This document shows positions 11,100-34,524 of a DNA stretch of 64,000 nucleotides, in pieces. This DNA comes from Alkaliphilus serpentinus (GTDB lineage: Bacteria > Bacillota > Clostridia > Peptostreptococcales > Natronincolaceae). Position numbers and translations under genes: made by a program. The first letter of the stretch is position 1. The number at the start of each line of letters is the position of its first letter. The DNA lies in the NCBI RefSeq assembly GCF_009017255.1, contig NZ_WBZB01000017.1, positions 1-64,000 of the forward strand, read 5' to 3'. Below the pieces are notes generated by a model. That model was not told where the DNA came from. It made no database searches and saw only the letters and a list, made by a program, of their open reading frames with translations.

Positions 11100-11128
11100 T
11101 TTAAAATAGTTGTAAAATAGTGTATAAT
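11100..11128 (+). promoter_or_regulatory. Probable sigma-A promoter of the radical SAM operon
   Basis: A perfect TATAAT (11123-11128) with TTTAAA 17 bases upstream, 60 bp before the first radical SAM gene. The -35 match is weak. Confidence 0.5.
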
Positions 11129-11187: not shown

Positions 11188-12513
11188 ATGAAAATTACGA
11201 TAATTAAAGTAGGGATGTTTGAAGGTAAAGGTTATGATGCCCTTAAGCCTTTAATATTTCCGATTATTGCTGAGTTAACCCCTAAAAACATAGAATTAGA
11301 ATTCTTAGATGATCGAGTGGAGACCTTACCAGAATCTCTGAATTCTAATATAATTGCCCTTTCCTTTGACACCTTTTCCGCCAAAAGAGCCTATATATTA
11401 GCTAGAAGGTACAAAAGACCAAACAACATCATTGTCTTAGGAGGTTTTCATGCCAGTTTGCTAAAGGAGGAAGCCAAAGCCTATGGCGACGTAATTATAG
11501 TAGGGGATGCAGAGGATACGTGGCCCAGACTCATTGAGGATGCCCTAAAGGGGACTCTTCAGCCAGAGTATAGATCCTCCTCAGGCTGTACCCTTGGGTA
11601 TATAGATTTCAATCATCCAGCCTTTGGAGGGAAAAAGTATCAAAGGCTAGGAGTGGTTCAATTTTCTAGGGGTTGTAAGTTCGGGTGTGACTTTTGCTCA
11701 ATAAAAGCACTGTACCCAGGTAAGGTCCGACAAAAGGAGATTAATCTCATTATAGAAGAAATCAAAACCATTAAAGAAAAGATTCTTTTTTTTGTAGACG
11801 ATAACCTATTTTTAGATGAAGAAACAGCCATTGCCCTATTTAGAGCTATAAAGCCACTGAAGAAAAAGTGGGCTTGTCAAATTAGTATGGATGTGGCAAT
11901 GAATAATAAGCTTTTAAAGCTTATGAGGGAAAGTGGATGCGTCATGGTACTTATAGGCTTTGAATCCCTCAACAAAAACAATCTTACCACCATGAAGAAA
12001 TCCGCTAATTTAGCCATGGATAATTACCAAGAGGCAATTGACAATATCTATAACCATGGTCTATTGATTTATGCCACCTTTGTTTTAGGTTATGATGAGG
12101 ATACAATAGATAGCTTTGAGGAGATACTAGCTTTTGCAATGAACCATCGCTTTACAGTGGCAAATTTCAACCCACTGATTCCGATGCCTGGAACCCCCCT
12201 ATATAGCCGACTGGAGGGAGAAGGGCGATTAATTCATGAGAAATGGTGGTTAAGTAATTCTTATTGTTATGGAGATACAGCCTACATACCAAGGGAGCTT
12301 GCTCCAGAAGCCCTAATGGAAGGCTGCAAATCCCTACGTTATAGGTTTTATGGTTTTAAAAATATAATAAAGCGTTTGTTTGCCAATAGATTACACCTAA
12401 GGCCTTATAACTTTTTTTTATACTTGGCCCTAAACATCATCTCCAATAGGGAGATCCACAGAAAGCAAGGCAGACTACTGGGGGGAATAATAGATGAAGT
12501 TAGTACTGATTAA
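11188..12513 (+). CDS. B12-binding-type radical SAM protein 1
   Basis: A 441-residue class-B-like radical SAM enzyme. The N-terminal half (about 1-135) resembles a cobalamin-binding Rossmann domain (DDRVETLP, IVLGGFHASLL, VGDAEDTWPRL). The central TIM-barrel part carries the [4Fe-4S] motif SRGCKFGCDFCS (Cys163, Cys167, Cys170), then FFVDDNLF and GFESLNKNN, and a C-terminal segment PLIPMPGTPLYSRLEGEGRL. These features match BchE/HpnP/Fom3-type enzymes that methylate or rearrange unactivated carbons. The canonical DxHxxG base-off cobalamin motif is not obvious, so cobalamin use is inferred. It is the first gene of a seven-gene operon and overlaps the next gene by 20 bp. The substrate is unknown. 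Confidence 0.85.
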   Translation: MKITIIKVGMFEGKGYDALKPLIFPIIAELTPKNIELEFLDDRVETLPESLNSNIIALSFDTFSAKRAYILARRYKRPNNIIVLGGFHASLLKEEAKAYGDVIIVGDAEDTWPRLIEDALKGTLQPEYRSSSGCTLGYIDFNHPAFGGKKYQRLGVVQFSRGCKFGCDFCSIKALYPGKVRQKEINLIIEEIKTIKEKILFFVDDNLFLDEETAIALFRAIKPLKKKWACQISMDVAMNNKLLKLMRESGCVMVLIGFESLNKNNLTTMKKSANLAMDNYQEAIDNIYNHGLLIYATFVLGYDEDTIDSFEEILAFAMNHRFTVANFNPLIPMPGTPLYSRLEGEGRLIHEKWWLSNSYCYGDTAYIPRELAPEALMEGCKSLRYRFYGFKNIIKRLFANRLHLRPYNFFLYLALNIISNREIHRKQGRLLGGIIDEVSTD

Positions 12514-13849
12514 GCCCAATATAGGGAGAAGAGAACATAGCCTATATGTAGATGAAGGTAGGATGGAACCTCTTCAACTGGGAATTTTAGCAGCCTTAAC
12601 GCCAAGGGATGTTGAAATTGTTATGTATGACGATCGAATGGAGGAAATACCCTATGATGAAGGGGCAGACCTGGTGGCCATAACAGTAGAAACCTTTACT
12701 GCAAGGCGGGGTTATGAAATTAGTAAAGCCTATAGGGAAAGGGGAATACCCACCGTCATGGGGGGGATGCATGTTATGCTATTGCCTGAAGAGGTAAAGA
12801 ACCATGCCGATAGTATCATGATAGGAGACGCAGAAAACTTATGGCCCCAACTTATAGAGGATTTTAAAAGGGGTCAATTAAAGAAGGAATATCGGGGAGA
12901 ACAACCCCTAATCCCCCAAAAATCTATTATTACCAGAAGGGATATTTTTGAAGGGAAGGGCTACTTACCCATCACATTATTACAATTTTCTAGGGGGTGT
13001 AAATACCATTGTAATTTCTGTGCTTCAACAGCCTATTTTAAGGGAAACCATTATTGTCGGGATGTACAGGATGTGGTTCGGGAAATTAAAAGCCAAAAAA
13101 GAAAGCTGCTGTTTTTCGTAGATGACAATATTGTTGCAGATTTTGAAAAGGCCAAGGCTCTTTTTACAGCACTAATACCCTTGAAGGTTAAGTGGGTAAG
13201 TCAGGGTAGTATGGATATGCTAGAGGATCAAGAGCTTATGGAGCTAATGGTAAAGAGCGGCTGTTTAGGCTTAGTAATAGGCTTTGAATCCATTAATGAA
13301 GAGAATTTAGAGTACGCAGCTAAGGGTGCCAATAGAAAAAGGGCATTAGATCATTATAAAAAAGAGATTCAGGAGCTTAGAAAGTGGGGATTACAGACCT
13401 GGGCTGCCTTTACTCTAGGCTATGATGGGGATACTAAGGAAAGTATTATTGAAACCTGTAAATTTGCAATAGAGAACAAGTTTTGCTTTGCAGCCTTTAA
13501 TATTTTAATGCCCTATCCCAATACACCTTTGTATGCTAAGCTTCAAGAGGAAGGCAGACTCCTTTATGGTGGCAACTGGTGGCTACATGAGGATTATCGA
13601 TTCAATCATGCTGCCTTTATTCCCCAAAACCTCTCACCAGAGGACTTAACGGAGGTTTCCTTTTGGTGCAGAAGGGCCTTTAATTCACCCTGGTCAATAT
13701 TTAAAAGGGCTCTAGAGCCCCATACAAATTTACGGAACCCTTATAGGTTCTTCACCTATTTAATATATAATCCACTTTTTAGGAAGGAAGTCTTCAAAAA
13801 ACAGAGTATGCGCTTTGGACTAAAGGAGGCGGAAAAAATCAATGGCTAA
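12494..13849 (+). CDS. B12-binding-type radical SAM protein 2
   Basis: A paralogue of the previous gene (451 residues) with the same order of parts: an N-terminal Rossmann-like domain (MYDDRMEEIP, MGGMHVMLLPEEV, IGDAENLWPQL), the radical SAM cysteines SRGCKYHCNFC (Cys169, 173, 176), FFVDDNIV, a GFESINEEN motif and a C-terminal PYPNTPLYAKLQEEGRL segment. It uses ATG 12494, 20 bp inside the preceding gene, which implies translational coupling. It overlaps the following gene by 8 bp. The four radical SAM proteins of this operon are alike in layout but clearly not recent duplicates. The substrate is unknown. Confidence 0.85.
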   Translation: MKLVLIKPNIGRREHSLYVDEGRMEPLQLGILAALTPRDVEIVMYDDRMEEIPYDEGADLVAITVETFTARRGYEISKAYRERGIPTVMGGMHVMLLPEEVKNHADSIMIGDAENLWPQLIEDFKRGQLKKEYRGEQPLIPQKSIITRRDIFEGKGYLPITLLQFSRGCKYHCNFCASTAYFKGNHYCRDVQDVVREIKSQKRKLLFFVDDNIVADFEKAKALFTALIPLKVKWVSQGSMDMLEDQELMELMVKSGCLGLVIGFESINEENLEYAAKGANRKRALDHYKKEIQELRKWGLQTWAAFTLGYDGDTKESIIETCKFAIENKFCFAAFNILMPYPNTPLYAKLQEEGRLLYGGNWWLHEDYRFNHAAFIPQNLSPEDLTEVSFWCRRAFNSPWSIFKRALEPHTNLRNPYRFFTYLIYNPLFRKEVFKKQSMRFGLKEAEKING

Positions 13850-14552
13850 AGAGATCAAGGGAAGCATAGTAGAAGTCTATACATTAACCAATGAGGATAT
13901 AGAAATGATGTATCGGCTTATGGATACCTTCTATGACAATATGACGAGGGAAAACTTTTTAAGGGATTTGAAACAAAAAGATTATTCTATTGTATTAAGG
14001 GATGAAGATCACAAAATATGGGGCTTTTCCACCCAGCAAATCCTTCACATTCCCTTGAAAGATCAAGTTATTCATGGGGTCTTTTCTGGAGATACCATTA
14101 TTCATAAGGACTACTGGGGTAGTATGGAGCTCTTTATTGTCTTTGCGAGGTTCTTTTTTGAGTTTGAAGAGAAATATCAGGACTTTTATTGGTTTTTAAT
14201 TTGCAAGGGCTACAAAACCTATCGTATGCTACCAACCTTTTATAAAACATTTTATCCCAATTATAAAGAGGACACCCCACAAGATATTCAGGCTATTATG
14301 GATGCCTTTGGGAGGTACTATAGCCCAGAGGAATACGACGAAGCAACCGGGGTGCTTTGCTATAAGGGAGTTAAGGACAAGCTAAAGGAAAATGTTGCCG
14401 ACGTAAGTGAAGAGAGGTTAAGGGATAAAAATATCGCCTTCTTTGTTGAAAAAAACCCTGACTATACAAAGGGTAATGATATTGTTTGTATAACAAAGCT
14501 TAGTAAGTCTAATCTGAAGCCTCGGATGAGAAGATTTTTGCTAGGATACTAA
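13842..14552 (+). CDS. Putative GNAT-like acyltransferase, 236 residues
   Basis: A 236-residue protein with weak resemblance to the GNAT fold: an N-terminal VYTLTNEDIEMMYRLMDTFY segment, then SIVLRDEDHKIWGFSTQQIL and GVFSGDTIIHKDYWGSMELF, where the HKDYWGS stretch sits at the place of the acyl-CoA pyrophosphate loop but lacks the classical Q/RxxGxG/A. No membrane helix. It begins with ATG 13842 inside the end of the previous gene, with AAAGGAGG upstream, and lies 20 bp before the GH3-type gene. In this setting an acyl-transfer or acyl-carrier role is plausible. The family call is tentative. Confidence 0.5.
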   Translation: MAKEIKGSIVEVYTLTNEDIEMMYRLMDTFYDNMTRENFLRDLKQKDYSIVLRDEDHKIWGFSTQQILHIPLKDQVIHGVFSGDTIIHKDYWGSMELFIVFARFFFEFEEKYQDFYWFLICKGYKTYRMLPTFYKTFYPNYKEDTPQDIQAIMDAFGRYYSPEEYDEATGVLCYKGVKDKLKENVADVSEERLRDKNIAFFVEKNPDYTKGNDIVCITKLSKSNLKPRMRRFLLGY

Positions 14553-14572
14553 GGTATAGATGGGTTGATGAA

Positions 14573-16126
14573 ATGAAAAGATTAAAAACATTTGTATATT
14601 ATTGTATCAATACCCTCTGTTGTCTTCTATATAGAGGAGAATATAAAAGGTTCCAAGCCATAAAGGATGTTCATGAACTTCAAGAAGAAAAGCTTAAGGA
14701 AATTCTAAAGGCCCATGCTGAAACGGTATATGGAGAAAAATACAATTTTAAAAGCATAGATGGGATAGAAGCCTATCAAGAAAAAGTCCCAATAAGTGAT
14801 TACGAAGCCTTTAGACCCTATATTGATGTAATGGCAGAAGAGGAAGGGTGCTTTCTAACAGCTGAGGAAGTAATAGCCTTTGAGCCCACCAGTGGCTCTA
14901 CAAAAGCCGCCAAGCTTATCCCCTATACCAAGGGTCTTAAGGAAGAATTTCAAAGGGGGATTAAGCCATGGATCTACAATTTGAATACCTCCTATCCAGA
15001 AATTAGATGGGGTAAAAGTTATTGGTCCATCACCCCTGCCACTAGTGAAAGACAATATACTAAAAGGGGGATTCCCATTGGTTTCGAAGAGGATAGTGAG
15101 TATTTTGGGAAGTTAGAAAAGTATCTGATGGAAAAGATTTTTGTAAATCCAAAGGATATTCAAAAAGAAAGAGATATGAACAGATTTTATGAAAGGACCC
15201 TAGTGGAGCTTTTAAAAACCAAGGATCTTACCATGATTTCTATATGGAATCCTACCTATTTGCTGCTTTTGCTAGATTATCTAGAGAAGAATAAAGAAGG
15301 CCTTCTAAAGAAGTTAAGTGAAGGAAGACAAAGGGAAATCTATGAAGGTATTTATAATAAAGACTATAAAAAAATATGGCCAAAGCTCAAGGTTATAAGT
15401 TGTTGGTGTGATGCTTATGCTGCTCCCTACGCAGAGGCTTTAAAGAAGCTCTTTCCCAATGGGATAATTCAGCCTAAGGGCTTAATATCCACAGAAAGCT
15501 TTGTTTCCTTTCCACTGGTTGGTGAGAAGGGGGCAGTGTTAAGTGTCCATTCTCATTTTTTTGAATTTATTGAGCTGGCCACAAATAAAATTTTGTTAAT
15601 TCAAGACCTAAAGGTTGGAAGGGAATATGAAGTAGTTGTAACAACCAGTGGGGGTCTTTATCGTTATCGTAGCTACGATGTGGTAGAGGTGGTTGGCTGG
15701 TGGAAGTCTTTACCCCTCCTGATCTTTAAAGGTAAAAATGATCGGGTTAGTGATCGATTTGGTGAAAAGCTCCATGAAGCCTTTGTAAGAGAGGTTGTTG
15801 AAGAACAATCTCCAAAGGCCACCTTTTATATGGTGGCTCCCCAAGGAGATTACTATGTCCTTTATATAAAGGCCCATCAGCTTCCATCCGCCAGTAAAAT
15901 TGATGAAGAGTTAAGAAAGAGCTTTCATTATGATTACTGTAGAAAGCTGGGGCAGCTTAAAGAGCTTAAGGTATTTGCTTTAACAGGAGATCCCCAAAAG
16001 GAGTATATAGAAGGCTGTTTAAAAGCAGGCCAAAGGCTAGGAGACATTAAGCCTACCTATCTTTCCACAAGGGAAGATTGGCCTAATTTTTTTCAGGGCT
16101 ATCTTGACGTAAACCAGGAAAAATAG
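14573..16126 (+). CDS. GH3-family acyl-adenylating enzyme
   Basis: A 517-residue member of the GH3 superfamily (named after plant auxin-responsive GH3), which activates carboxylic acids as acyl-adenylates and transfers them to an amine, often of an amino acid. The evidence is the ATP-binding motif FEPTSGSTKAAKLIPYT (about residues 103-119), the WSITPATS region, LISTESF, the adenylate-binding YRYRSYDVVEVVGWW (about 363-377) and the hinge-type FKGKNDRVSDRFGEKLHE. Length matches the family. Bacterial GH3 proteins are scattered and mostly uncharacterised. It sits in the centre of a radical SAM operon, suggesting that a carboxylate made or modified there is amidated. The N-terminal hydrophobic-looking start (about 1-20) may be a membrane-proximal helix. 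Confidence 0.85.
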   Translation: MKRLKTFVYYCINTLCCLLYRGEYKRFQAIKDVHELQEEKLKEILKAHAETVYGEKYNFKSIDGIEAYQEKVPISDYEAFRPYIDVMAEEEGCFLTAEEVIAFEPTSGSTKAAKLIPYTKGLKEEFQRGIKPWIYNLNTSYPEIRWGKSYWSITPATSERQYTKRGIPIGFEEDSEYFGKLEKYLMEKIFVNPKDIQKERDMNRFYERTLVELLKTKDLTMISIWNPTYLLLLLDYLEKNKEGLLKKLSEGRQREIYEGIYNKDYKKIWPKLKVISCWCDAYAAPYAEALKKLFPNGIIQPKGLISTESFVSFPLVGEKGAVLSVHSHFFEFIELATNKILLIQDLKVGREYEVVVTTSGGLYRYRSYDVVEVVGWWKSLPLLIFKGKNDRVSDRFGEKLHEAFVREVVEEQSPKATFYMVAPQGDYYVLYIKAHQLPSASKIDEELRKSFHYDYCRKLGQLKELKVFALTGDPQKEYIEGCLKAGQRLGDIKPTYLSTREDWPNFFQGYLDVNQEK

Positions 16127-16164
16127 CAAACTTTAAATAAAATACAAGAATTATGGAGGCCAAA

Positions 16165-17496
16165 ATGAAGATAGCGTTATTAGCCCCAGCAGGGGCCATG
16201 CATAGGTATAATGGTAGTTTTGGTAAGTCGTTGCATTATGCACCCCTCACCTTAACCACCCTGGCTGCCCTTGTACCAGAAGACATTGAAGCAGAGGTGG
16301 TAATTTTTGATGAAACAGCAGATGAAATCCCTCTGGATTTAGAGGCAGACTTAGTGGGAATTACCTGTATTACAGGGACGGCACCAAGATGCTATGCCTA
16401 TGCCGATTATTTTAGAAAAAAGGGCATGAAGGTCTTCTTAGGAGGTGTGCATCCATCTCTTTTGCCCCATGAGGCAAAAGCCCATGCAGATGTGGTTTTG
16501 ACAGGCTTTGCAGAGTTTACCTTTCCCCAAATGCTGAGGGATTTTATAAAGGGAGAGCTGAAGCCCTTTTATCATCAAGACTGTAACTTTACAATAGCTA
16601 ATAGACCCATGCCAAGACGTGATTTATTAAATAAAAAAAGATATATCACCATTAATACGGTAGAAGCCGTTAGGGGCTGTAGTTACCCCTGTACCTTTTG
16701 TGCTTATCCTTCAGCCTTTGGAACCAACGTCTATAATCGTCCTATTCAGGAGGTAGTTAAAGAGGTGGAGGCCCTAAGGGCAAAGATTGTGGTTTTCCCT
16801 GATGTCAATTTAATTGCTGATAAAGCCTATGCTAAGGAGCTTTTTAAGGCCTTAATCCCCCTGAAGATTTCCTGGTTAGGTCTGGTGACCTCCTATATTG
16901 GTGTAGATGAGGAACTTATTAGAATTTTTGCAAAGAGTGGTTGTAAGGGTGTTCTTATAGGCTTTGAGTCCATTTGGCAATCCTCACAGCAATATATTAA
17001 TAAAGGAGTTAATCAGGTGCAAAGCTATGGTGAGCTTATAAAAAAATTACATGCCCATGGAATCTTGGTTCAGGGCTGCTTTGCCTTTGGTGGAGATGAC
17101 GAAGACAAGTCTGTTTTTGAAAAAACTGCAGAGATGATTACTAAAATAAAAATTGATTTACCTAGATACAGCATTTTAACCCCCTTTCCCAATACACAGC
17201 TTTACAGGGATCTTCATAAATCAGGTAGAATTATTGAAGATCATTGGGCTATGTATGATGTGGAGCATGTGGTTTTCAAACCTGCTAAGATGACAGTAGA
17301 AGATCTAGAAGAAGGAATTGTCTGGGCATGGAAGCACACCTATAGTTTAAAGGATATTGCTAAACGCTTGGCTCCCTTCAACCATAGTCCGTGGATGTCT
17401 ATTCCTCTAAACTTAGGATATAGGAAATATGCTGAAAAATTTAAGCATTTTACTCGGGATATTATGTGCGATAATTCTGATATCCCAATACTATAA
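16165..17496 (+). CDS. B12-binding-type radical SAM protein 3
   Basis: A 443-residue radical SAM protein with an N-terminal Rossmann-like domain (VVIFDETADEIP, FLGGVHPSLLPHEA), the cysteine motif VRGCSYPCTFCAYP (Cys172, 176, 179), VVFPDVNLI in place of the usual FVDDN, IGFESIWQSS and a C-terminal TPFPNTQLYRDLHKSGR. The replacement of the FVDDN motif by FPDVN sets it apart from the three paralogues, so it may act on a different substrate. ATG 16165 is preceded by GGAGG at 5 bases; the ATG at 16153 lies at that ribosome binding site. It follows the GH3 gene by 38 bp. Confidence 0.85.
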   Translation: MKIALLAPAGAMHRYNGSFGKSLHYAPLTLTTLAALVPEDIEAEVVIFDETADEIPLDLEADLVGITCITGTAPRCYAYADYFRKKGMKVFLGGVHPSLLPHEAKAHADVVLTGFAEFTFPQMLRDFIKGELKPFYHQDCNFTIANRPMPRRDLLNKKRYITINTVEAVRGCSYPCTFCAYPSAFGTNVYNRPIQEVVKEVEALRAKIVVFPDVNLIADKAYAKELFKALIPLKISWLGLVTSYIGVDEELIRIFAKSGCKGVLIGFESIWQSSQQYINKGVNQVQSYGELIKKLHAHGILVQGCFAFGGDDEDKSVFEKTAEMITKIKIDLPRYSILTPFPNTQLYRDLHKSGRIIEDHWAMYDVEHVVFKPAKMTVEDLEEGIVWAWKHTYSLKDIAKRLAPFNHSPWMSIPLNLGYRKYAEKFKHFTRDIMCDNSDIPIL

Positions 17497-17595
17497 AACT
17501 AATTTTTATTATTAACTTCGCAATATTTCTCTTTATTTAAGAATCTAGGTGTTTAAGTTAGTGCTATAGATAAGAAGAGTCAAAGGAGATAAAAG

Positions 17596-18927
17596 ATGAA
17601 GCTAACATTTATATTGCCAGCTATAGGCAAAAAACTTGGAGAAAAATATATAGGAACTTGGAAGATGGAGCCCTTAACAATAGCCGTGTTAAAAAGTCTG
17701 ACCCCCAGTGATATTGAAACGGTTTTTTATGATGACCGTGTAGAGCTGATTGATTATGATGATCCAACAGATTTGGTGGTTATTACAGTGGAAACCTATA
17801 CTGCAAGGCGTAGCTACGAGATCAGCAAGGCCTTTAGAGAGCGGGGGGCTAAGGTGATCCTTGGGGGTTACCACACCACACTAATGCCGGAGGAGGCTAT
17901 GGAGCATGCCGATGCCATAATGATGGGCAATGCGGAGGATGTATGGCAAGGAATGCTAGCGGATTTTCAAAGAAATCAGTTAAAGAAATCCTATACAGGA
18001 CAGGTTTCCTTTAGCCCTCTATTACCAGATAAGTCTATTTTTCAAGGGAAAAGTTATCTCCCGGTTTCCCTGGTGGAGACCGGTAGGGGATGCTTTAATC
18101 AATGTAATTTTTGTGCAATAGCAGGCTATTATAACTGTCAATATTATGCCAGACCCCATGAACATATCATCAGAGATATTCAACAATCCAAACACAAATA
18201 TCATTTTTTAGTGGATGATAATTTGGTGGCCAATAAGAAAAATGCCCTAGAGATTTTTGAGAAAATTACACCCTTGGGGATTAAATGGGCTGGACAAGGA
18301 ACCCTCAGCATGGCCAAGGATGAAGCCCTCCTAAAGGCCATGAAAAAAAGTGGCTGTGAAATTATTCTAATAGGCTTTGAAAGCTTAGAGGAAGAAAATC
18401 TTAGGCAGATGAATAAGCCTGTAAATCTCATTATGGAGGAGCGGGATCAGCTAGTTAAGCGGATCCATAACGCAGGCATAGGAATTTATGCCACCTTTGT
18501 ATTTGGTTACGACTATGATACTGAAGATACCATCGAAAAGGCCCTCCGATTCTCTGAAAAGCATAAGTTTTATACGGCAGCCTTTAACCATCTTTTGCCC
18601 TTTCCAGGAACAAGCCACTATCAATACTTGAAGGACGAAAAAAGACTATTGGTGGATAAATGGTGGCTACAGGAGGACTACAATTATGGAGAACTGGCCT
18701 TTAAACCGAAAAACATGTCACCAGAAAGGCTTAGTAAGCTCTGTAGAGATGCAAGAAAGGATTTTGCCAATGGTAAAAACCTACTAAGGAGGGGCTTTGC
18801 CTCCATGGCAAGAACCAGTCCCCTTTTATGGTTCCTCTTCTGGACAATGAACTTAAGCATTGGGGGAGAGATAGACGAAAAAATGAATGTACCCATAGGG
18901 AGGAATTTAGATGAACTTCCCAAATGA
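17596..18927 (+). CDS. B12-binding-type radical SAM protein 4
   Basis: A 443-residue radical SAM protein closest in motifs to number 2: N-terminal FYDDRVELIDY, ILGGYHTTLMPEEA and MGNAEDVWQGM, cysteines GRGCFNQCNFCA (Cys166, 170, 173), FLVDDNLV, IGFESLEEEN, and C-terminal LPFPGTSHYQYLKDEKRL. It starts at ATG 17596 with AAAGGAGA upstream. The 99-bp gap before it is the largest in the operon and contains no clear terminator. The end overlaps the following GNAT-like gene by 17 bp, indicating coupling. The exact reaction cannot be read from sequence. Confidence 0.85.
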   Translation: MKLTFILPAIGKKLGEKYIGTWKMEPLTIAVLKSLTPSDIETVFYDDRVELIDYDDPTDLVVITVETYTARRSYEISKAFRERGAKVILGGYHTTLMPEEAMEHADAIMMGNAEDVWQGMLADFQRNQLKKSYTGQVSFSPLLPDKSIFQGKSYLPVSLVETGRGCFNQCNFCAIAGYYNCQYYARPHEHIIRDIQQSKHKYHFLVDDNLVANKKNALEIFEKITPLGIKWAGQGTLSMAKDEALLKAMKKSGCEIILIGFESLEEENLRQMNKPVNLIMEERDQLVKRIHNAGIGIYATFVFGYDYDTEDTIEKALRFSEKHKFYTAAFNHLLPFPGTSHYQYLKDEKRLLVDKWWLQEDYNYGELAFKPKNMSPERLSKLCRDARKDFANGKNLLRRGFASMARTSPLLWFLFWTMNLSIGGEIDEKMNVPIGRNLDELPK

Positions 18928-19981
18928 TAAATATCAGTTGGTTTTAGCTGAAGAAAAGGATTTAGCCGAAATAAAGTCCATTTTTGAAGATGGGCAATTT
19001 GACGGTGGAATAGCCGTTCAATATTTAAGAAATCCTAATCCCATTACTTCCTTTGAAAGGGAAGGAGACAAGGTGTTTTTCTTAGTCCTAAAGGATAATA
19101 TTCATCAGAAACTAATGGGCTTGGGGGCTTGTATCGTGCGGAGGGTTTATAAGGGGGGGGAAGTCTTAAGGATGGGGTATTTAGCAGGTCTTAAGCTTTT
19201 ACCGGAATATCAGAAAAAGCTTCTTTTTATCCCCCATATCTACCAGCAGCTTTATGAGGCAACCAAAGATCATGTAGATTTCTATTTCACCACTATATTA
19301 AAGGATAATGTAGCGGCCCAGACTATGCTGGAAAAGCCCAGAAAAGTCATGCCCCTATACCAGTATTTGGGTGACTATAGAGTGTATTTTTGTAAGGCAG
19401 GGATAAAAAAGACCATAGAAAGAGATGATCAGTATAGTGTTAGACGTTGCAGCAAAGAGGAGATAAAAACCTTTTATTTAGAGGAAGCCCATAAGGCTGA
19501 TTTATCCCTTGAGGCCATAGATGCCTATGATTTAAAAAATGCCACCTATTATGGGTTGTTTAAAGATAATAGTATAGTAGGCTGTGGCTATGTGCTAAAT
19601 CAACAGGACTATAAGCAGTATGTTGTTAAGAAATATAATGGTGTTTATAAGCTTCTTTCTAAGCTTCCAACCAGATTACTTGGTTATCCTTCTTTGCCAG
19701 CCATTAATGAAACAGCCAATTGTGGCAGCGCAGGAATATGGGTAAAGGATCATGATGCATTCCTGGCCCATAAGCTGTGGCAATTTATTCGGCAGAATTC
19801 AAAAGAACTGGATTTTCTCATGATAGGCTTTTATGAGAAGCATCCCCTTAGGGCCTATTTTGAAAAAACAAAGCACATTCAATATGATAGTCGATGTTAT
19901 ATTGTAGACTGGCAGCGTAATAGAAAGGTTTATGAGGAGCTTCAAGGGAAAAATCTCTACATCGATGTGGCCTTTTTATAG
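18911..19981 (+). CDS. GNAT-like acetyltransferase-fold protein, 356 residues
   Basis: A 356-residue protein that probably contains a GNAT-type N-terminal domain: YQLVLAEEKDLAEIKSIFEDGQ, then FFLVLKDNIHQKLMGLGACIVRRVYKGGEVLRMGYLAGLKLLPEYQ, in which strand 4 and the following helix occupy the acyl-CoA binding region. The C-terminal half (about 190-356) looks like a second, related domain (TYYGLFKDNSIVGCGYVLNQ). No membrane helix. ATG 18911 is inside the last codons of radical SAM 4 with AGGGAGG upstream, so it belongs to the operon and is its last gene. Two GNAT-like proteins beside a GH3 ligase suggest acyl transfer to an amine. Function is not established. Confidence 0.6.
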   Translation: MNFPNDKYQLVLAEEKDLAEIKSIFEDGQFDGGIAVQYLRNPNPITSFEREGDKVFFLVLKDNIHQKLMGLGACIVRRVYKGGEVLRMGYLAGLKLLPEYQKKLLFIPHIYQQLYEATKDHVDFYFTTILKDNVAAQTMLEKPRKVMPLYQYLGDYRVYFCKAGIKKTIERDDQYSVRRCSKEEIKTFYLEEAHKADLSLEAIDAYDLKNATYYGLFKDNSIVGCGYVLNQQDYKQYVVKKYNGVYKLLSKLPTRLLGYPSLPAINETANCGSAGIWVKDHDAFLAHKLWQFIRQNSKELDFLMIGFYEKHPLRAYFEKTKHIQYDSRCYIVDWQRNRKVYEELQGKNLYIDVAFL

Positions 19982-20103
19982 GTTTCCTTGGATAGAGGGG
20001 CTCAAGTTTCATTAAGATTTGTGGTTGCTAAGTTCAACTAGGGGGCCATTGGAATCTATCAAAAATTAGAATTTAAGAAAATTGATGAATTATTTGGGAT
20101 GTA
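19982..20103 (+). pseudogene. Decayed GNAT acetyltransferase C-terminus
   Basis: Directly after the stop of the preceding gene, and in the same frame, the DNA reads as the last 40 or so residues of a GNAT protein: VSLRFVVAKFN, a TAG, then GAIGIYQKLEFKKIDELF and a stop. The pattern 'SLxVxxxNxxAIxxYxKLxF' is the typical GNAT C-terminus. There is no start codon or N-terminal part nearby, so this is a relic, perhaps left after a deletion that joined it to the operon end. Confidence 0.7.
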
Positions 20104-20110
20104 AATGGGG

Positions 20111-20141
20111 AAAAGATACTAAATTAATAGTATCTTTTTTC
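20111..20141 (+). terminator. Intrinsic terminator
   Basis: The stem AAAGATACT/AGTATCTTT with an 8-base loop followed by TTTTTT closes the radical SAM operon and the GNAT relic. Confidence 0.85.
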
Positions 20142-20271
20142 TATCGAGAAATATCTATATATTCTCTTTCTTTCTTTGAATAATTCTTTATTAATAAGCA
20201 GAATGGGTATCTTATATTATAGATTAGACTTTAAATAGATCCCATAAAGAAATAAGTAAGGAGGAAGAGAA

Positions 20272-20970: not shown

Positions 20971-21079
20971 GGTATGAAAACTGTAGCAAACGATCACTTT
21001 TTAGATGACTTTTCAAAATATTTGTGATACTATATAATAAGAATAGTGCTATAGCACTAGAGACATATCTAAACCAAAT

Positions 21080-21161
21080 CAAAAAAGGCAAACTTATCGA
21101 AAGGTAAGGACGCAAAGCCAAGGGCCTAAGATAATGATTTATTAAGGTAGCCGGTTGCTAA
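21080..21161 (+). promoter_or_regulatory. Class I cyclic di-GMP riboswitch (GEMM-I)
   Basis: The stretch contains the conserved GEMM-I core in order: GGCAAAC, a GNRA-capped hairpin (TTATCGAAAGGTAAG), GGACGCAAAGCC, GGGCCTAAG, a variable stem, and GGTAGCCGGTTGCT. This arrangement is distinctive. A probable TATAAT promoter lies at 21033-21038. A terminator hairpin follows, so the expression platform acts on transcription. It controls the adjacent diguanylate cyclase gene. Confidence 0.93.
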
Positions 21162-21172
21162 GTTATGTAACT

Positions 21173-21226: not shown

Positions 21227-22636
21227 ATGTTAAAATCTAAGTTTCGGAAACTAAGGATATTAATAAAAAATAAAACCATACAAGTTTCAATCTTACTATC
21301 AGTTATAATCATTGGATTATTAGTAGGAATAGCTTCCCATAGAATCAAAGAATCTCTCACTTCCCAGATGCTAAAGGAAAACTATAAAATCGTAAAACAA
21401 GTTAATAATGGGATTCATTTATTCTATTCTTTTGATAAAGAAAAGACTATAAAGAATATTAAAAGCATAGGACAATGGGTTCTTTATAATATTGATGAAA
21501 TGGATAATGAAAAGCTGTACTTATTGGCTGACACCTTTAATGTAGCTGAAATTAACATTATTGATGAGTCAGGAGTAATCACCAGCTCTAGTGATTTTAC
21601 TAAAGTAGGAGAAGCTTTAAGTCACAATTCAATTCACAAGCTAGCTAATAGCTTGGACTCTTTAATAATTGAAAATACGGAAAAGGAAGAAGGAACTGGA
21701 AGGTATATTAAAAGGGGCTATATTAAAAATTTTACAGGTGGATACATCCAAGTAAGTGTTGAAAGAAATTTTTCTGAATTGCATCTTTATAGTTATCAAA
21801 TGATTCTTGATGAATTAGTGAAGGATGGTAAGGTGATTTACGGACTATTTGTAAATACAGATTTAGTTGCCACCGCCCATAGTAATATTGATCATATAGG
21901 AGAAGAGATTGATAATAAAGGTAGTAGATTGGCTGCAATAGATGGGATGACCTATGCAACGGAGTACTACAACGAAGATAAAGATTATTTCACCTATGAA
22001 ATATTCTTCCCTGTAAGGATTGATGAAGAATTAATTGGAGCCATTATTTTAGGTGCATCTATGAAGAGGGTTTATAATTTGATTTTTGGTCATATTTTAA
22101 CAATTATAATAGTGGGAGTAATAATATTAGCTTTGATAATTATTCTAATTGTAAAGCTGTCTAACTATAAGGAATATGCAATTAAAGATACCTTAACGGG
22201 AGCATATTCAAGACTATTTTTAGAAAAGTGGCTATCCACCAGTGAAAAAGAAAATAGAAAAGAGGAAAATACACTAGTTGTTATGATAGATATTGACAAT
22301 TTTAAGGTTATTAATGATACCTATGGTCATTCTGCAGGCGACTTAGCCTTGATTGAGCTGACTAATTTACTGAAGGCATCCCTAAGGAAGGGAGATTTTG
22401 TAGTTCGATATGGAGGAGATGAGTTTATATTAATACTTAAGAATTGCAAAAAAGATGTAGCTGAGAAAATCATGGAGCGGATAGAAGAGAGAGTAGCTTT
22501 AATAAATATAAAGGGTCAGGATATGGAGATCGGCTTATCCTATGGTATTGAAGAACTAAAGCGTAAAAAAGACTTTGTAGAGTATTTTAATGCTGTAGAT
22601 GAAAGAATGTATTATTCAAAAAATGATAAAAAATGA
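21227..22636 (+). CDS. Membrane diguanylate cyclase with extracellular sensor domain
   Basis: A 469-residue sensor diguanylate cyclase that makes c-di-GMP from two GTP. TM1 is at about residues 15-33, a CACHE/PAS-like extracellular domain spans about 35-280 (ADTFNVAEINIIDESGVITSSS and AIDGMTYATEYY resemble CACHE signatures), TM2 is at about 288-312, and a GGDEF domain follows with DIDNFKVINDTYGHSAGD and an intact active site GGDEF (396-400). An RxxD product-inhibition site is not obvious. The gene lies directly behind a c-di-GMP riboswitch plus terminator, so its expression probably responds to its own product. ATG 21227 follows AAAGGGTGATG. Confidence 0.92.
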   Translation: MLKSKFRKLRILIKNKTIQVSILLSVIIIGLLVGIASHRIKESLTSQMLKENYKIVKQVNNGIHLFYSFDKEKTIKNIKSIGQWVLYNIDEMDNEKLYLLADTFNVAEINIIDESGVITSSSDFTKVGEALSHNSIHKLANSLDSLIIENTEKEEGTGRYIKRGYIKNFTGGYIQVSVERNFSELHLYSYQMILDELVKDGKVIYGLFVNTDLVATAHSNIDHIGEEIDNKGSRLAAIDGMTYATEYYNEDKDYFTYEIFFPVRIDEELIGAIILGASMKRVYNLIFGHILTIIIVGVIILALIIILIVKLSNYKEYAIKDTLTGAYSRLFLEKWLSTSEKENRKEENTLVVMIDIDNFKVINDTYGHSAGDLALIELTNLLKASLRKGDFVVRYGGDEFILILKNCKKDVAEKIMERIEERVALINIKGQDMEIGLSYGIEELKRKKDFVEYFNAVDERMYYSKNDKK

Positions 22637-28689: not shown

Positions 28690-31600
28690 ATGGGAAGAAA
28701 GATTTTTAGGGGATGGAGCTTAATATTAATTTTTGCTCTAGTTATAAGTAGCGTTTTTTCCTTTGCAAAAGTGGACTATGTATTAGGTGAGGAAAATCCA
28801 ATTACTGTTGCAGAAGCAATTGTAAATAATACTGGGACGAAATCTGTGGTTGGTTACATTGTGGGAACAGTGACAACTGGCCCAACTTATCAACGTGAAG
28901 GACCCTTTACTGTTTATACAAACTTAGCTATTGCAGATAGTCCAGAGGAGACAGATGCCTCAAAGATTCTGCCAGTTCAATTGCCTAGTGGTTCCATAAG
29001 AACAGAGCTGAACTTGGTGGATAATCCACAAAATCTAGGCAAAAAAATTGTTATCAATGGAAGTCTAGAAGCTTACTTTGGTGTCTCAGGGCTGAAATCG
29101 CCTACAGGCTATCAGTGGGTTCCAGAGGAAGGTGGGGTTCTGTCAATTAGTCACACACCAGTAGCTACTGCTAGGGAAGGTGAAGATATACCTATTAATT
29201 TCACTGTTGCCAATGAAACAGGCAGTGTAACAGGAGCGGTATATCATAAATATACAAATGAAATAACTTATAATTTTATTAATACAACTGGAAGTGCTAT
29301 TATACCAGCAGCTGAGGTTGTAGAAGGAGAAATAGAATACTACATAGAGGTCCAGGATGATAATGATATAGTCAGGAGTCCTGAAACAGGTGCTCATATT
29401 ATCACCATTCAACCGCAACTGGTAGTCAGTACCATAGCGGAAATAAAGGGATTACCAGTAGGTACTGAGATGGCTGTTGAAGGTATTGTAACCACAAATC
29501 CAGGGAGCTTTGGAGGAAAAGGCTTTTACCTACAGGATTCAACGGCTGGAGTCTACTCTTTCCACTTTTCAAATGATTTTGGAGTTGAAAGAGGAAACCT
29601 CATAAGGCTGGTTGGAACAACCTCAGAATATAATGGAGGGTTTCAAATATCACCAACGGCTGTTGAAATCCTAAGTACCAGTACTGTTGAACCAACTGCT
29701 AGGGAGATTGCTATTTCAGATATCGGTCTAAATAATGAAGGACAGTTGGTGACAGTGAATGCTGTAACGGTAACCAGCTTTGATTCCGACAACTACAAAA
29801 CTGCAATGCTAACCATTACAGATGGTATCAATACAGGCATTATCAAATTAGACAATAGAACTGGATACAATTCTGACCAGCTGGCTGCTAAGGTTACTGT
29901 TGGTGATGAGCTGGATGTTGTTGGTGTAGTAGGGTATCAGAGTAACGAATATAGAGTTTTATTACGTGATTTAGATGATGTAACAGTTCTTGGGGCATCT
30001 ACTGTAGCTCCAGTAGTTGCTACACCCGAGGCGGGAGCAGTTACAGCTGGCACTCAGGTTACATTGACCACTGCTACTGAAGGTGCAGCTATTCTATATA
30101 CAACTGGAGCTGGAGACCCAGATACAGAATATACACAACCAATCGTTATAAATGAAGCCACTACAATTAAGGCTATGGCAACAAAAGAAGGTTTGAATAA
30201 TAGTAGTATTAGTACCTTTGCTTATACAATGAGAGAAGAGGGAGTTTTACCTATATTAGAGGTTAAAAAGCTTCCATTAAACTCTACTGCAGAGTTAAGG
30301 GGAGTTGTAACAGCCTTAACGGGTAGCAGTAATAGAGAGGCCTATATTCAAGATGAAATGGCTGGTCTTCAAATTAACCTACCTGATATAGCAACTAAAG
30401 TAAAGGTAGGAGATATAATTAAGGCTTCTGGTCAATTGCAGGAATATAGGGGAGAACTACAATTTGTTCCAGCTAGTCTAGAGGATGTTATTGTTGAAAG
30501 CGGCAATAATCCATTGCCACAAGTAATGGATGTATCCTTAAAACAGGTTTCTCAAGCTAATGGAAGGATTTCAGTAGATACAGCCCTGATTAATTATCAA
30601 GGTAATGAGGGGACAATCACTGTAAGGGGTGTTATTACTGATGTGTTGCCAAATGGTCAATATGCAATGGAGATTGCAGACCAAGTCGATCCTACAAGGG
30701 TTATGTCTGTAGCCTTGCCGGCAGAATATAGAGAGGAATTTAGTCCCTATAGCAATCCATCGGCTGTTGGTAGAATAGTTCTGGTAACAGGCCAAGAAAA
30801 GAACTATTTTAACAAGCCTGCCATTAGACAAGTAAGTAGCTATGATCCCAATACTGGAATTTCGACCAAAGGAGAGTTCCATGTAGGTTATGATATAGAA
30901 GGCATGATGGTTGCTACAGAAGCCTTTGAAGTAGTTTCTAAGGATGGCTATGGCTTTATAGGAAAGACAGGTGAAGTCGAAGCTTATATTTACACCGGTA
31001 GAGCTACCAATTTCAATCTATCAGAAATAGAGATTGGTGATTGGTACTCAGCTAAAGGAATAGTAGCCTATTACAACCGCCCTCAATTAAAGCTCATTGA
31101 CGGTGGGGATTTAAAGGCTGAACTTCCTCCAAATGGAAAAGATCCAAGTAATCCTTTGGTGTTAGATGCTAAACCAGGTAACTTTGTATCAACCTTTAAT
31201 CAAAGCCCCTTGATATCTGCAAGACTAGAGGCTACAGCAGCTGCTATTGATTTCAACAATGTAAGACTTCTGTTTAATGGGATAAGGGTCGAGCATACAT
31301 TAGATGCTTCAACAGGCATCATATCTTATCAAACAGCAAATCTAGATTATGGTGAGCATGATGTAGTTATTTATGTACCTGATGTTGAGGGTAGAATGAA
31401 GGAGTTTAACTGGTTCTTTAGGGTTGAAAAGGAAAATCCTAATTATAATTTCTACTATGGAATACCCCATGCCCATACAGCCTATTCTGATGGAGCAGGT
31501 ACTCCTAATGAGGCCTATGAGTATGCAAAGACTAATAATCTAGATTGGTTATTTATAACCGATCATTCCAATTGGTTGGATGGAGTAACAGAGGGTAACT

Positions 31601-34524
31601 ATGAGTATGATCCAGTTGCCAATGAGTATGTTGAAGTGGTAGGCTCCCAATGGCACTCAACAAGACTAGAAGCTGAAGCCATTAATGAAAAATATGCCGG
31701 TGAATTCTTAGCAATAAGGGGCTTTGAAATGACCTCCAGTATTTGGGGTCACACCAATAGCATTAATAGTGATACCTATGTTGAAGCAAAAAAACAAATG
31801 GTACCATTAAGTGAATACTATGACTGGGTAACAGATGTATCAACAAGATCAGGGGCTAAAGTATTTAATGCCTTTAACCATCCCAATTGGCCCGACGATT
31901 CCTTTAATAATCTAGCCTATGTAGCAAGTCTGGATAGATACTTTAACGGTATAGAGGTAGGAAATGGGGCACCCCCATATAGCTACGCTAGAGCAGAAGG
32001 TCACTACTTTAAAGCCCTGGATAATGGCTGGAGATTAGGAGCCTTAAATGGTCAGGATAACCATGCTAAAAACTGGGGAGATCCAGATTCCTTAACGGTC
32101 GTAATAGCTGAATCATTAGATACAGATACGCTAATCGATGCAATGAATGCAAGAAGGATGTATTCTACAGAGACAAGGACTTTAGAACTGACGGTGAAGG
32201 GTAACGGACATTGGATGGGGAGCGTTCTTGATGTAAATGCAGGTGATGAAATTAATTTAGATATCCTTGCAGAGGATTCGATGGTTAAGATAGATAAACT
32301 ACAATTAATAACAAATGGTGGTAATATCCTAGATGAAAAGGTATTTAGTGGTGGAACCAACAGTGCTGCATGGAATTTAACTCTAAATGCCAGTGGAGGG
32401 GCCCAATGGTTTGTTGTTAAGGTAATTCACTCCAATGGAGGATGGGGCCATGCATCACCTATATTCACTGCTGCTGGAGAAAATGATGTTAAGCTAACCA
32501 ATATTACTGTAAATCCAAATCCTACTCTGCCAGGATTCAATACTGAGGTTGAAGCCACAGTTTCAAATATGGGGTTACGGGCTGTTGACGGCATTGAGGT
32601 CAATTTCTATGCTAACAGCATCAGTAGCGAAAACTTAATAGATGTTGTAGCCTTAGATGGAAAATTGGACCCAGGAGCCAGTACAAAGCTAAGCACAACA
32701 TGGCTACCCGTCACCCATGGAGAACAAAGAGTTTTTGCAGTTTTAACCCCTATAAGTGGCGTAACCACAGTAACTGAGATATCCACAAATGTTAAGGTGG
32801 TAAAGCCCATAGGTAAAAAGATCCTCTTTGACGGTGGTCATAATAATGCAGATGTACCTGGAACAGTTGTTAAGATAATAGAAATGCTTAGATTATATGG
32901 CTATGAGGCAGTAATCAATACCAAAAAATATACTCCAGAGCTATTAGAAAATGTAGACGTACTAATCATTAATACACCATTAAATGCTGATAATGGATTT
33001 ACCGAAGCAGAAGAAGAGGCAATTGCTGCTTGGGTTAATGCAGGTGGAGCAATAATGATGGCATCAAAATCCAATTATAATCAAGATAGTACAATATTAA
33101 ACAGCTTGATGACTGAAATCGGTTCCACCATCAGATTCAATAATGATAATATCTACGAGCCAGAGGGTTCTAGCAAGTATACTGGTGGTATGGTTTGGTC
33201 CATTATCATGGAGAACTTACCATCTACCCCTAGTGGATTAAATGAGAACATGGAGGCTATAAGAATATTTAGTGGATGCTCCTTAGTAACAGAGGTTAAT
33301 GGTGGGTTTGGACCATTGGTTAATAATCCAGAAACGGGCTTGGAAATATTACTATACGCCAACGATACCTCCTACAATGCCTTGGCTGGATCAAATGCTT
33401 ACATTTATAACGAAGAGGGCCAGCTTAATGGAGATACAATTCCTGTTATTGCAACTGAAAGAGTTGGTAACGGTAGGCTGGTTGCAGCGGGTAGACACTT
33501 CTATTCAGACTTTGAAATTGGTAACAATGTAAGTAATACAGTATTAACCCTACAGACAATAGATTGGCTTGCTGGTTATGACAGGGTTAGAACCATTACT
33601 GATATTAGAGAAAATGCCGTGGTGGGGGATGTTGTTACTGTAAGGGGTATTGTTACAGCACCTACAAATCATTTCTTTGATGTTGTTTACATTCAGGATG
33701 AAACCTCTGGCGTAGCCATATATGGTTCGCAGCTTCATGATAACCTACCTATTGGAACAGAAATTATCGCAACCGGTAAGGTAACTTACTTTGAAGGTGA
33801 ATTGGAATTAGCCTTTGAAAATTATGATTATGAGGTACTGTATATAGGACCGATAGAACCGGTAATTCCAACAAAAGTTTCTACAAATGAAGCAATGGCC
33901 GCCGGAGTAGAAGGTAAGTTGGTAACCACAGAGGGTATCATTGTTAACTATAACGAAGTAGATGGTAATTTTTCAATAGATGATGGAAGCGGAGAGGCTT
34001 TTGTTCAAATTGATGGATATCTAAACTTAGGTATGGATAGATTTAAATTAGGAGATCGGGTTTCTGTAACGGGTGTTGTCTCCCATGGGTCTGTTGGACC
34101 AAGAATTAGGGTTAGATTCTATGATGACCTGGAGTTGGCTGAAGAAATTATAACTCCTACTATTCAATTGGAGGGAGTTATAGCTAATAAAACAAACTTC
34201 CAACCAAAATCCACTATACCCTTTAAGTTTAGTATTCTTAATGTAGATGGAGTGCCAGAAGCTATGGATGATGTAACGGTAAAAATCTATGATGGAGACA
34301 ATTTAATTGTAATCTTTGAAGAGGGAAGAGGTCCTAATAGGATCCACAGAGCTGGTAAACCAGGGCAGTACAAGGTAAATATCCATACCAATTCTTTGAA
34401 AATACAGGAAGGGGAATATACAATCGTTATAGAATTTAACTACGATGATGAAAGGATTAGTCTCCACGCTGTAGATATAACAATAGGCAAAAATAAGGAT
34501 GAGCAAAAGGGTAAAAATAAATAA
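28690..34524 (+). CDS. Giant secreted multidomain PHP-family metallohydrolase
   Basis: A 1944-residue exported protein. A signal peptide (residues 1 to about 28) is followed by a DUF6359-like domain (about 37-145), an OB-fold (about 252-435), a chitobiase C-terminal-type beta domain (437-515), a second OB-fold (about 519-630) and further beta domains. Then comes a CehA/McbA-type PHP metallohydrolase (about 925-1190) with metal ligands His927-x-His929 (PHAHTAYSDG), Asp958-His959 (TDHSNW), GFEMTS, FNHPNW and NGQDNH. A CARDB-type domain (about 1265-1370), a DUF4350/GATase-like domain (about 1377-1630) and two more OB-folds (about 1633-1810) complete it. The mixture resembles YhcR-type extracellular nucleases and phosphoesterases; a nucleotide or phosphate-ester substrate is likely but unproved. 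No SLH or sortase motif is seen. AAGGGGTG precedes ATG 28690. Confidence 0.85.
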   Translation: MGRKIFRGWSLILIFALVISSVFSFAKVDYVLGEENPITVAEAIVNNTGTKSVVGYIVGTVTTGPTYQREGPFTVYTNLAIADSPEETDASKILPVQLPSGSIRTELNLVDNPQNLGKKIVINGSLEAYFGVSGLKSPTGYQWVPEEGGVLSISHTPVATAREGEDIPINFTVANETGSVTGAVYHKYTNEITYNFINTTGSAIIPAAEVVEGEIEYYIEVQDDNDIVRSPETGAHIITIQPQLVVSTIAEIKGLPVGTEMAVEGIVTTNPGSFGGKGFYLQDSTAGVYSFHFSNDFGVERGNLIRLVGTTSEYNGGFQISPTAVEILSTSTVEPTAREIAISDIGLNNEGQLVTVNAVTVTSFDSDNYKTAMLTITDGINTGIIKLDNRTGYNSDQLAAKVTVGDELDVVGVVGYQSNEYRVLLRDLDDVTVLGASTVAPVVATPEAGAVTAGTQVTLTTATEGAAILYTTGAGDPDTEYTQPIVINEATTIKAMATKEGLNNSSISTFAYTMREEGVLPILEVKKLPLNSTAELRGVVTALTGSSNREAYIQDEMAGLQINLPDIATKVKVGDIIKASGQLQEYRGELQFVPASLEDVIVESGNNPLPQVMDVSLKQVSQANGRISVDTALINYQGNEGTITVRGVITDVLPNGQYAMEIADQVDPTRVMSVALPAEYREEFSPYSNPSAVGRIVLVTGQEKNYFNKPAIRQVSSYDPNTGISTKGEFHVGYDIEGMMVATEAFEVVSKDGYGFIGKTGEVEAYIYTGRATNFNLSEIEIGDWYSAKGIVAYYNRPQLKLIDGGDLKAELPPNGKDPSNPLVLDAKPGNFVSTFNQSPLISARLEATAAAIDFNNVRLLFNGIRVEHTLDASTGIISYQTANLDYGEHDVVIYVPDVEGRMKEFNWFFRVEKENPNYNFYYGIPHAHTAYSDGAGTPNEAYEYAKTNNLDWLFITDHSNWLDGVTEGNYEYDPVANEYVEVVGSQWHSTRLEAEAINEKYAGEFLAIRGFEMTSSIWGHTNSINSDTYVEAKKQMVPLSEYYDWVTDVSTRSGAKVFNAFNHPNWPDDSFNNLAYVASLDRYFNGIEVGNGAPPYSYARAEGHYFKALDNGWRLGALNGQDNHAKNWGDPDSLTVVIAESLDTDTLIDAMNARRMYSTETRTLELTVKGNGHWMGSVLDVNAGDEINLDILAEDSMVKIDKLQLITNGGNILDEKVFSGGTNSAAWNLTLNASGGAQWFVVKVIHSNGGWGHASPIFTAAGENDVKLTNITVNPNPTLPGFNTEVEATVSNMGLRAVDGIEVNFYANSISSENLIDVVALDGKLDPGASTKLSTTWLPVTHGEQRVFAVLTPISGVTTVTEISTNVKVVKPIGKKILFDGGHNNADVPGTVVKIIEMLRLYGYEAVINTKKYTPELLENVDVLIINTPLNADNGFTEAEEEAIAAWVNAGGAIMMASKSNYNQDSTILNSLMTEIGSTIRFNNDNIYEPEGSSKYTGGMVWSIIMENLPSTPSGLNENMEAIRIFSGCSLVTEVNGGFGPLVNNPETGLEILLYANDTSYNALAGSNAYIYNEEGQLNGDTIPVIATERVGNGRLVAAGRHFYSDFEIGNNVSNTVLTLQTIDWLAGYDRVRTITDIRENAVVGDVVTVRGIVTAPTNHFFDVVYIQDETSGVAIYGSQLHDNLPIGTEIIATGKVTYFEGELELAFENYDYEVLYIGPIEPVIPTKVSTNEAMAAGVEGKLVTTEGIIVNYNEVDGNFSIDDGSGEAFVQIDGYLNLGMDRFKLGDRVSVTGVVSHGSVGPRIRVRFYDDLELAEEIITPTIQLEGVIANKTNFQPKSTIPFKFSILNVDGVPEAMDDVTVKIYDGDNLIVIFEEGRGPNRIHRAGKPGQYKVNIHTNSLKIQEGEYTIVIEFNYDDERISLHAVDITIGKNKDEQKGKNK

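Follow-up and report, generated by a model that had tools for sequence, protein, structure and literature searches.

The operon and its transcription signals

The stretch of DNA described here, in the following called the window, comprises positions 1 to 64,000 of contig NZ_WBZB01000017.1 of Alkaliphilus serpentinus (assembly GCF_009017255.1). At 11188-19981 the window carries a block of seven genes, all on the plus strand, which we name RS1, RS2, GN1, GH3, RS3, RS4 and GN2 in their order. They encode four radical S-adenosylmethionine (SAM) proteins, a ligase of the GH3 family and two putative acyltransferases of the GNAT superfamily. That these genes constitute a conserved pathway is well supported, and an amide-linked acylated small molecule may be its product. 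The genes and the signals that flank them are:

11100-11128, plus strand: promoter-like TTTAAA-N17-TATAAT, a consensus match only
11188-12513, plus strand: RS1, radical SAM protein with a B12-binding-like N-terminal domain; CxxxCxxC motif reading CKFGCDFC; optional module, mostly paired with RS2
12494-13849, plus strand: RS2, radical SAM protein with a B12-binding-like N-terminal domain; optional module, mostly paired with RS1
13842-14552, plus strand: GN1, putative acyltransferase of single-GNAT fold; co-occurs with GH3
14573-16126, plus strand: GH3, acyl-adenylating amide ligase of the GH3 family (Pfam GH3/GH3_M) with intact catalytic motifs
16153-17496, plus strand: RS3, core radical SAM protein with an FPDVN motif and a conserved DNSDIP tail
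17596-18927, plus strand: RS4, core radical SAM protein whose fixed C-terminus, LDELPK, overlaps the GN2 start
18911-19981, plus strand: GN2, double GNAT of the N-myristoyltransferase (NMT) type, 356 amino acids, with a conserved terminal leucine
20107-20142, plus strand: AT-rich hairpin with a T-run, resembling an intrinsic terminator (-15.2 kcal/mol, z -5.4), 126 nucleotides past GN2

Coordinates and strands of all seven genes are as an earlier first-pass annotation of this DNA had given them. In window order, the intergenic distances are -20, -8, +20, +26, +99 and -17 nucleotides, so that its description of genes that overlap or nearly touch does not extend to an overlap at RS3-RS4. It had also assumed one promoter and one terminator. 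A terminator-like hairpin was recovered, the promoter-like sequence is a match to the consensus only, and a single transcript for all seven genes is plausible. A recent foreign acquisition, judged by base composition, was dropped as an explanation, the G+C content of the operon (39.3%) not being distinctive against that of the window (37.6%). Between GN2 and the terminator, positions 20045-20104 hold the end of a broken single-GNAT-like gene (AIGIYQKLEFKKIDELFGM, then stop), probably a decayed acetyltransferase.

Conservation and architecture of the operon

A first scan of a genome collection with GH3 alone as query returned no relatives, as the search patterns were too specific. Scanning the 84,980 species of this collection with an RS3 alignment yielded 168 relatives, 80 of which were kept. 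In whole-genome searches the operon turned up sporadically: a search with GH3 was positive for 7 of 297 genomes in the order, and one with GN2 for 3 of 291 genomes in the class and 7 of 348 in the phylum. In the listed relatives from the same family, these searches did not find it. Among the carriers are Ruminococcus flavefaciens 007c, Peptoclostridium litorale DSM 5388 and Anaerotalea alkaliphila, many Oscillospiraceae and Lachnospiraceae from the guts of herbivores (ruminants and deer) and, over several phyla, Limnochordia, Propionibacterium and Actinomycetales, and UBP9.

The operon genes share one strand in all 82 distinct loci, and 394 of their 434 gene gaps measure 30 nucleotides or less (median -4). 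Pairwise divergence is correlated between all seven genes with Spearman coefficients of 0.86-0.94, which are partly due to shared ancestry. Near relatives of GN2 in the genome searches lie almost always inside the operon. The first-pass annotation had proposed to look for the same gene order in other Clostridia, and the neighbourhood was indeed found to be strongly conserved. A scatter of these proteins over mostly unrelated contexts, which it had named as speaking against its reading, is not what we observe. It is near certain that the operon represents one pathway. For this gene combination we found no name, model or paper in the searched literature, which missed most subscription papers.

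One possible role is that of an intracellular cofactor or redox lipid required by certain anaerobes, and thus of housekeeping and not of specialised metabolism. It would fit that most versions have no recurrent dedicated transporter or regulator and that several loci adjoin ribosomal or other core genes. Such a role is nevertheless improbable, as the distribution is very patchy at the level of order, class and phylum and extends to none of the listed relatives of the family.

Architectures were counted in 53 loci not interrupted by contig ends. The full set of seven genes is present in 36 of them, the majority with a fifth radical SAM gene in front. A form with two radical SAM genes, consisting of GN1, GH3, RS3, RS4 and GN2, accounts for six loci, and seven loci, the permease versions, have RS3, RS4 and GN2 without GN1 and GH3; the remaining loci are exceptions, some of them due to assembly gaps. 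The common core is RS3-RS4-GN2, with RS3 and RS4 as the radical SAM proteins of the minimal unit. GN1 and GH3 co-occur, as do RS1 and RS2 in most loci. In the permease versions, a protein of 376-386 amino acids is encoded immediately before RS3, and a scan of four such proteins placed each of them in the Trp_Tyr_perm family. This permease forms a single family cluster in eight loci, and in a ninth (L110) it was recognised by sequence resemblance. Two individual deviations were seen, namely two RS4 copies side by side (L062) and a GN2 broken by stops or a frameshift (L113).

Radical SAM proteins

As the first-pass annotation had stated, RS1-RS4 are four paralogous radical SAM proteins: all score above the Pfam Radical_SAM cut-off, carry CxxxCxxC and share 30-42% identity along their length. 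For the B12-binding domain (PF02310), RS3 reaches 36.1 bits against a cut-off of 32.1, and RS1, RS2 and RS4 lie just below it at 29.7-30.9 bits. A layout with a B12-binding-like domain ahead of the radical SAM domain is seen in all four, and its attribution to BchE, HpnP and Fom3 needs adjustment, in that the nearest families are HpnJ, BchE, PhpK and AprD4, all far below their cut-offs. RS1-RS4 belong to none of the BchE, HpnJ, HpnR, PhpK, AprD4 or ladderane radical SAM equivalogs and subfamilies, for which they score 17-97 bits against cut-offs of 360-650. They have in common with enzymes of the BchE/HpnJ/HpnR/PhpK/AprD4 type the domain layout, the CxxxCxxC motif and a length of about 440-450 amino acids, but form orthologous groups of their own, found in this operon. 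The radical SAM protein of the ladderane lipid cluster (TIGR04072) is an example of B12-type enzymes linked to lipid synthesis, but the operon proteins score 55-65 bits against its cut-off of 360. The ladderane lipid cluster is not known to include a GH3 protein or an NMT-type GNAT. The closest solved chains are AprD4 and 9ccb, RS3 being nearest to AprD4.

The FPDVN motif that had been pointed out in RS3 is conserved in 73 of 81 orthologues, with FPDIN in three more, and these proteins also share the C-terminal motif M.D(N/D)SDI. The FVDDN motif attributed to the other paralogues does not apply to RS4 of the window, which reads LVDDN. All 70 RS4 homologues compared end on a single alignment column, 69 of them with lysine. 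This fixed end may reflect only the overlap with the conserved GN2 start, or it may be a functional tail. As the residue beneath the cobalt differs between characterised cobalamin-dependent radical SAM enzymes (PMC13331322), no single motif is diagnostic of cobalamin use. The operon enzymes somewhat more probably use cobalamin than do without it.

GH3 ligase

The assignment of a GH3-type ligase in the first-pass annotation is unambiguous, its N-terminal and central domains scoring 163.5 and 66.8 bits in Pfam against a gathering score of 23.6. The catalytic positions E104, SGS107-109, K114, T307E308, Y363R364Y365, D369 and K493 are each kept in at least 93% of 65 homologues, and the conserved motifs are TSGS..K, TES, YRY..D and a C-terminal GD.K. 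Plant GH3 structures are homologous to the protein (E 1e-31), and its N-terminal and central parts align to AtGH3.15.

The sole NCBIfam match is OlsH (NF052613), at 54 bits where its cut-off is 620, so that the protein falls outside the OlsH family. OlsH is a characterised bacterial GH3, the lyso-ornithine lipid synthetase, which makes N-acyl ornithine (PMC12493201). Like the OlsH/OlsI ornithine lipid pathway of planctomycetes (PMC12493201), the present operon combines a bacterial GH3 with a second acyltransferase. The amide between fatty acid and amino acid that characterises the OlsH/OlsI pathway is the parallel we propose for the operon. Unlike that pathway, the operon has neither OlsI nor OlsG and contributes two to five radical SAM enzymes.

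GNAT proteins

GN1 and GN2 of this genome have no Pfam match above cut-off, and their homologues match GNAT models, in the case of GN1 Acetyltransf_9. AlphaFold2 models agree with the two GNAT-like proteins that had been annotated, GN1 being a single GNAT (predicted local distance difference test score, pLDDT, 96.4) and GN2 a full double GNAT (pLDDT 94.3). Structural matches of GN1 reach Z-scores of about 11-13, with GCN5, AAC(2'), LasI and FeeM within about 2 Z units. Because these score nearly equally, the GN1 fold does not point to any one class of substrate.

In the case of GN2, the best 50 entries of the Protein Data Bank are all eukaryotic NMTs, with Z-scores of 21.1-22.8, and HisAT is not among these 50 listed matches. 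The best superposition (Z 22.8, root mean square deviation 3.6) aligns about 296 of 356 residues and shows the NMT arrangement over the full length. The last long strand of the model stops at residue 333 and the chain at residue 356, which pairs with the final residue of the NMTs from yeast, Candida and human (alignment ends 451, 455, 492 and 496). The terminal leucine occupies the same column in all 69 complete GN2 homologues from the operon. In 26 representatives with less than 60% identity, only 7 of 352 columns do not vary, that of the leucine being one of them, and four positions ahead of it there is invariably Asp or Glu. In another phylum, the homologues (23% identity) terminate in LELAWL or YEVAWL. 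Two double GNATs outside the operon have the ends DPIDI (L109) and LDVRDL (L137), the second being Leu-terminal as well.

According to a review of the GNAT superfamily, the C-terminal carboxylate of NMT could act as general base, a feature that the review calls unique within the superfamily (PMC4964394). GN2 has the look of a bacterial relative of the human protein-myristoylating enzyme, sharing with eukaryotic NMT the full-length fold, the position of the C-terminal residue and a coenzyme A (CoA)-binding loop without the usual GNAT glycines. We give NMT-like catalysis by GN2 an even chance. It differs from eukaryotic NMT in being bacterial, in its 356 amino acids, in its place inside a biosynthetic operon and in that a protein substrate is not evident. 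NMT-type double GNATs of bacteria and archaea were reported as structures only in 2025 (PMC12219266). GN2 appears to be of this structural class, with a C-terminus predicted to run into the active site, but in its case one lineage can be linked with a conserved pathway. Protein myristoylation as the role of GN2 was rejected, since substrate evidence is absent and the operon context favours a pathway step.

The combination of an NMT-type fold with radical SAM enzymes could also be read as a pathway for a ribosomally synthesised and post-translationally modified peptide, which GN2 would N-acylate as NMT does with proteins. B12-type radical SAM enzymes are frequent in such pathways, and this counts for the peptide. 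NMT works on peptide N-termini (PMC4964394), which also fits. Set against this, 735 small open reading frames around and between the operon genes (upstream, downstream and intergenic) contain no conserved precursor family, the lone cluster of three sitting inside the permease gene, where it looks like an out-of-frame shadow. A protease or peptide-processing family does not recur in the neighbourhood clusters either, and we hold a peptide product to be very improbable.

Lipid context and proposed product

The best clue to a product bearing a fatty chain comes from a distant phylum, that of the UBP9 genome, because there lipid enzymes adjoin the operon genes. The six loci concerned (L131-L136) are from 8-Mb genomes; Pfam was run on the neighbours from L131, L134 and L136, and the rest were assigned by position and sequence resemblance. 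In five of them, GN2 or GN1, together with GH3, adjoin a fatty acid desaturase, a PAP2-type phosphatase and a cytochrome P450, with RS1, RS3 and RS4 also nearby in four. In the sixth (L134), a fusion of AMP-ligase, acyl carrier protein (ACP) and PlsC acyltransferase is followed by RS4-GN2-GN1-GH3.

We consider the chances about even that this one inherited seven-gene pathway yields a small molecule acylated through an amide link, in the likeliest case an aminolipid of the membrane or the cell surface. The same balanced judgement holds for the product class, which we infer to be that of amide lipids that are N-acylated and altered by radical chemistry. RS3 and RS4, aided in the larger versions by RS1, RS2 and the fifth radical SAM protein, would use a SAM-derived radical, possibly with cobalamin, for C-C bond formation or methylation at unactivated carbons in one of the building blocks, the amine or the acyl part. 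GH3 would convert a carboxylate to an acyl-AMP that is then joined to an amine. GN1 and GN2 would acylate amines from CoA- or ACP-bound donors, and in GN2 the C-terminal carboxylate of the protein itself may serve as base, as in NMT. Permease strains would either import an amino-acid precursor or make a product without the corresponding amide. The modified lipid with an amide bond that the first-pass annotation had suggested gains support from GH3, with OlsH as its nearest model, from the NMT-like GN2 and from the distant lipid context, the product itself remaining a proposal. Also in its favour are the Trp/Tyr-type permease in place of GN1 and GH3, with no GH3 found elsewhere in those genomes in a search that lacked a positive control among them, and the absence of a conserved small precursor peptide.

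Several observations weigh against an aminolipid made in this way. The linkage to lipid enzymes is seen in one distant group only and not in Firmicutes. The radical SAM proteins match many families of differing chemistry about equally, far under the equivalog cut-offs, and no cobalamin or SAM riboswitch was detected upstream in the window or in 15 loci, the cobalamin result being the one that counts here. Between GN2 and NMT, sequence similarity is undetectable, and 44 homologues match Acetyltransf_1/9 and no Pfam NMT model. The fixed end of GN2 proves little by itself because the C-terminus of RS4 is also fixed, albeit overlapping the GN2 start. Common descent explains a part of the correlated divergence.

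The main competitor, which we regard as rather unlikely, is a soluble amino-acid-derived metabolite such as a signal, an osmolyte or an antibiotic-like amide, in which GH3 would conjugate an amino acid, the radical SAM enzymes would reshape it and the GNATs would only acetylate. The Trp_Tyr_perm-family permease as core partner in nine loci is in line with such a metabolite, and so are AAC(2') and AprD4, which act on small polar substrates, among the closest solved relatives; HisAT is an example of a double GNAT that acetylates amino acids in their free form (PMC12219266). The desaturase, PAP2, PlsC and ACP surroundings in the other phylum speak against it, as does the C-terminus of GN2, which appears to be of the NMT and not of the HisAT type. 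Moreover, no exporter or self-resistance gene recurs in the neighbourhood clusters of the GH3 versions.

Other features of the window

Further along the window, a c-di-GMP-I riboswitch (21077-21162, 82.8 bits) lies directly 5' of the gene at 21227-22636, a GGDEF protein by sequence; feedback on a diguanylate cyclase is possible. Positions 28690-34524 encode a protein of 1944 amino acids with DUF6359, Fn3-associated and chitobiase C-terminal-like domains, which is probably surface-associated. A cluster at 39197-62743 with a PucR-type regulator, amidohydrolases, two adenine-deaminase-like genes, a molybdopterin hydroxylase subunit and a UbiD-like decarboxylase suggests catabolism of a purine or related heterocycle.

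Implications

The gene set recurs in many gut and environmental bacteria, yet is undescribed in the literature searched. Tentatively, and with less confidence than in the product class itself, it may stand for a new class of aminolipids that are tailored by radical SAM enzymes, widespread among the Firmicutes of rumen and gut and made with a GH3 and an NMT-type acyltransferase that uses its C-terminal carboxylate as base. Should the product prove to be a new class of lipid, rumen and gut lipidomes would already allow its detection. RS3 and RS4 are a compact radical SAM pair, suited to biochemistry. GN2 would give a pathway to the bacterial NMT-type double GNATs, so far structures without a function, and would bear on the origin of eukaryotic protein myristoylation.

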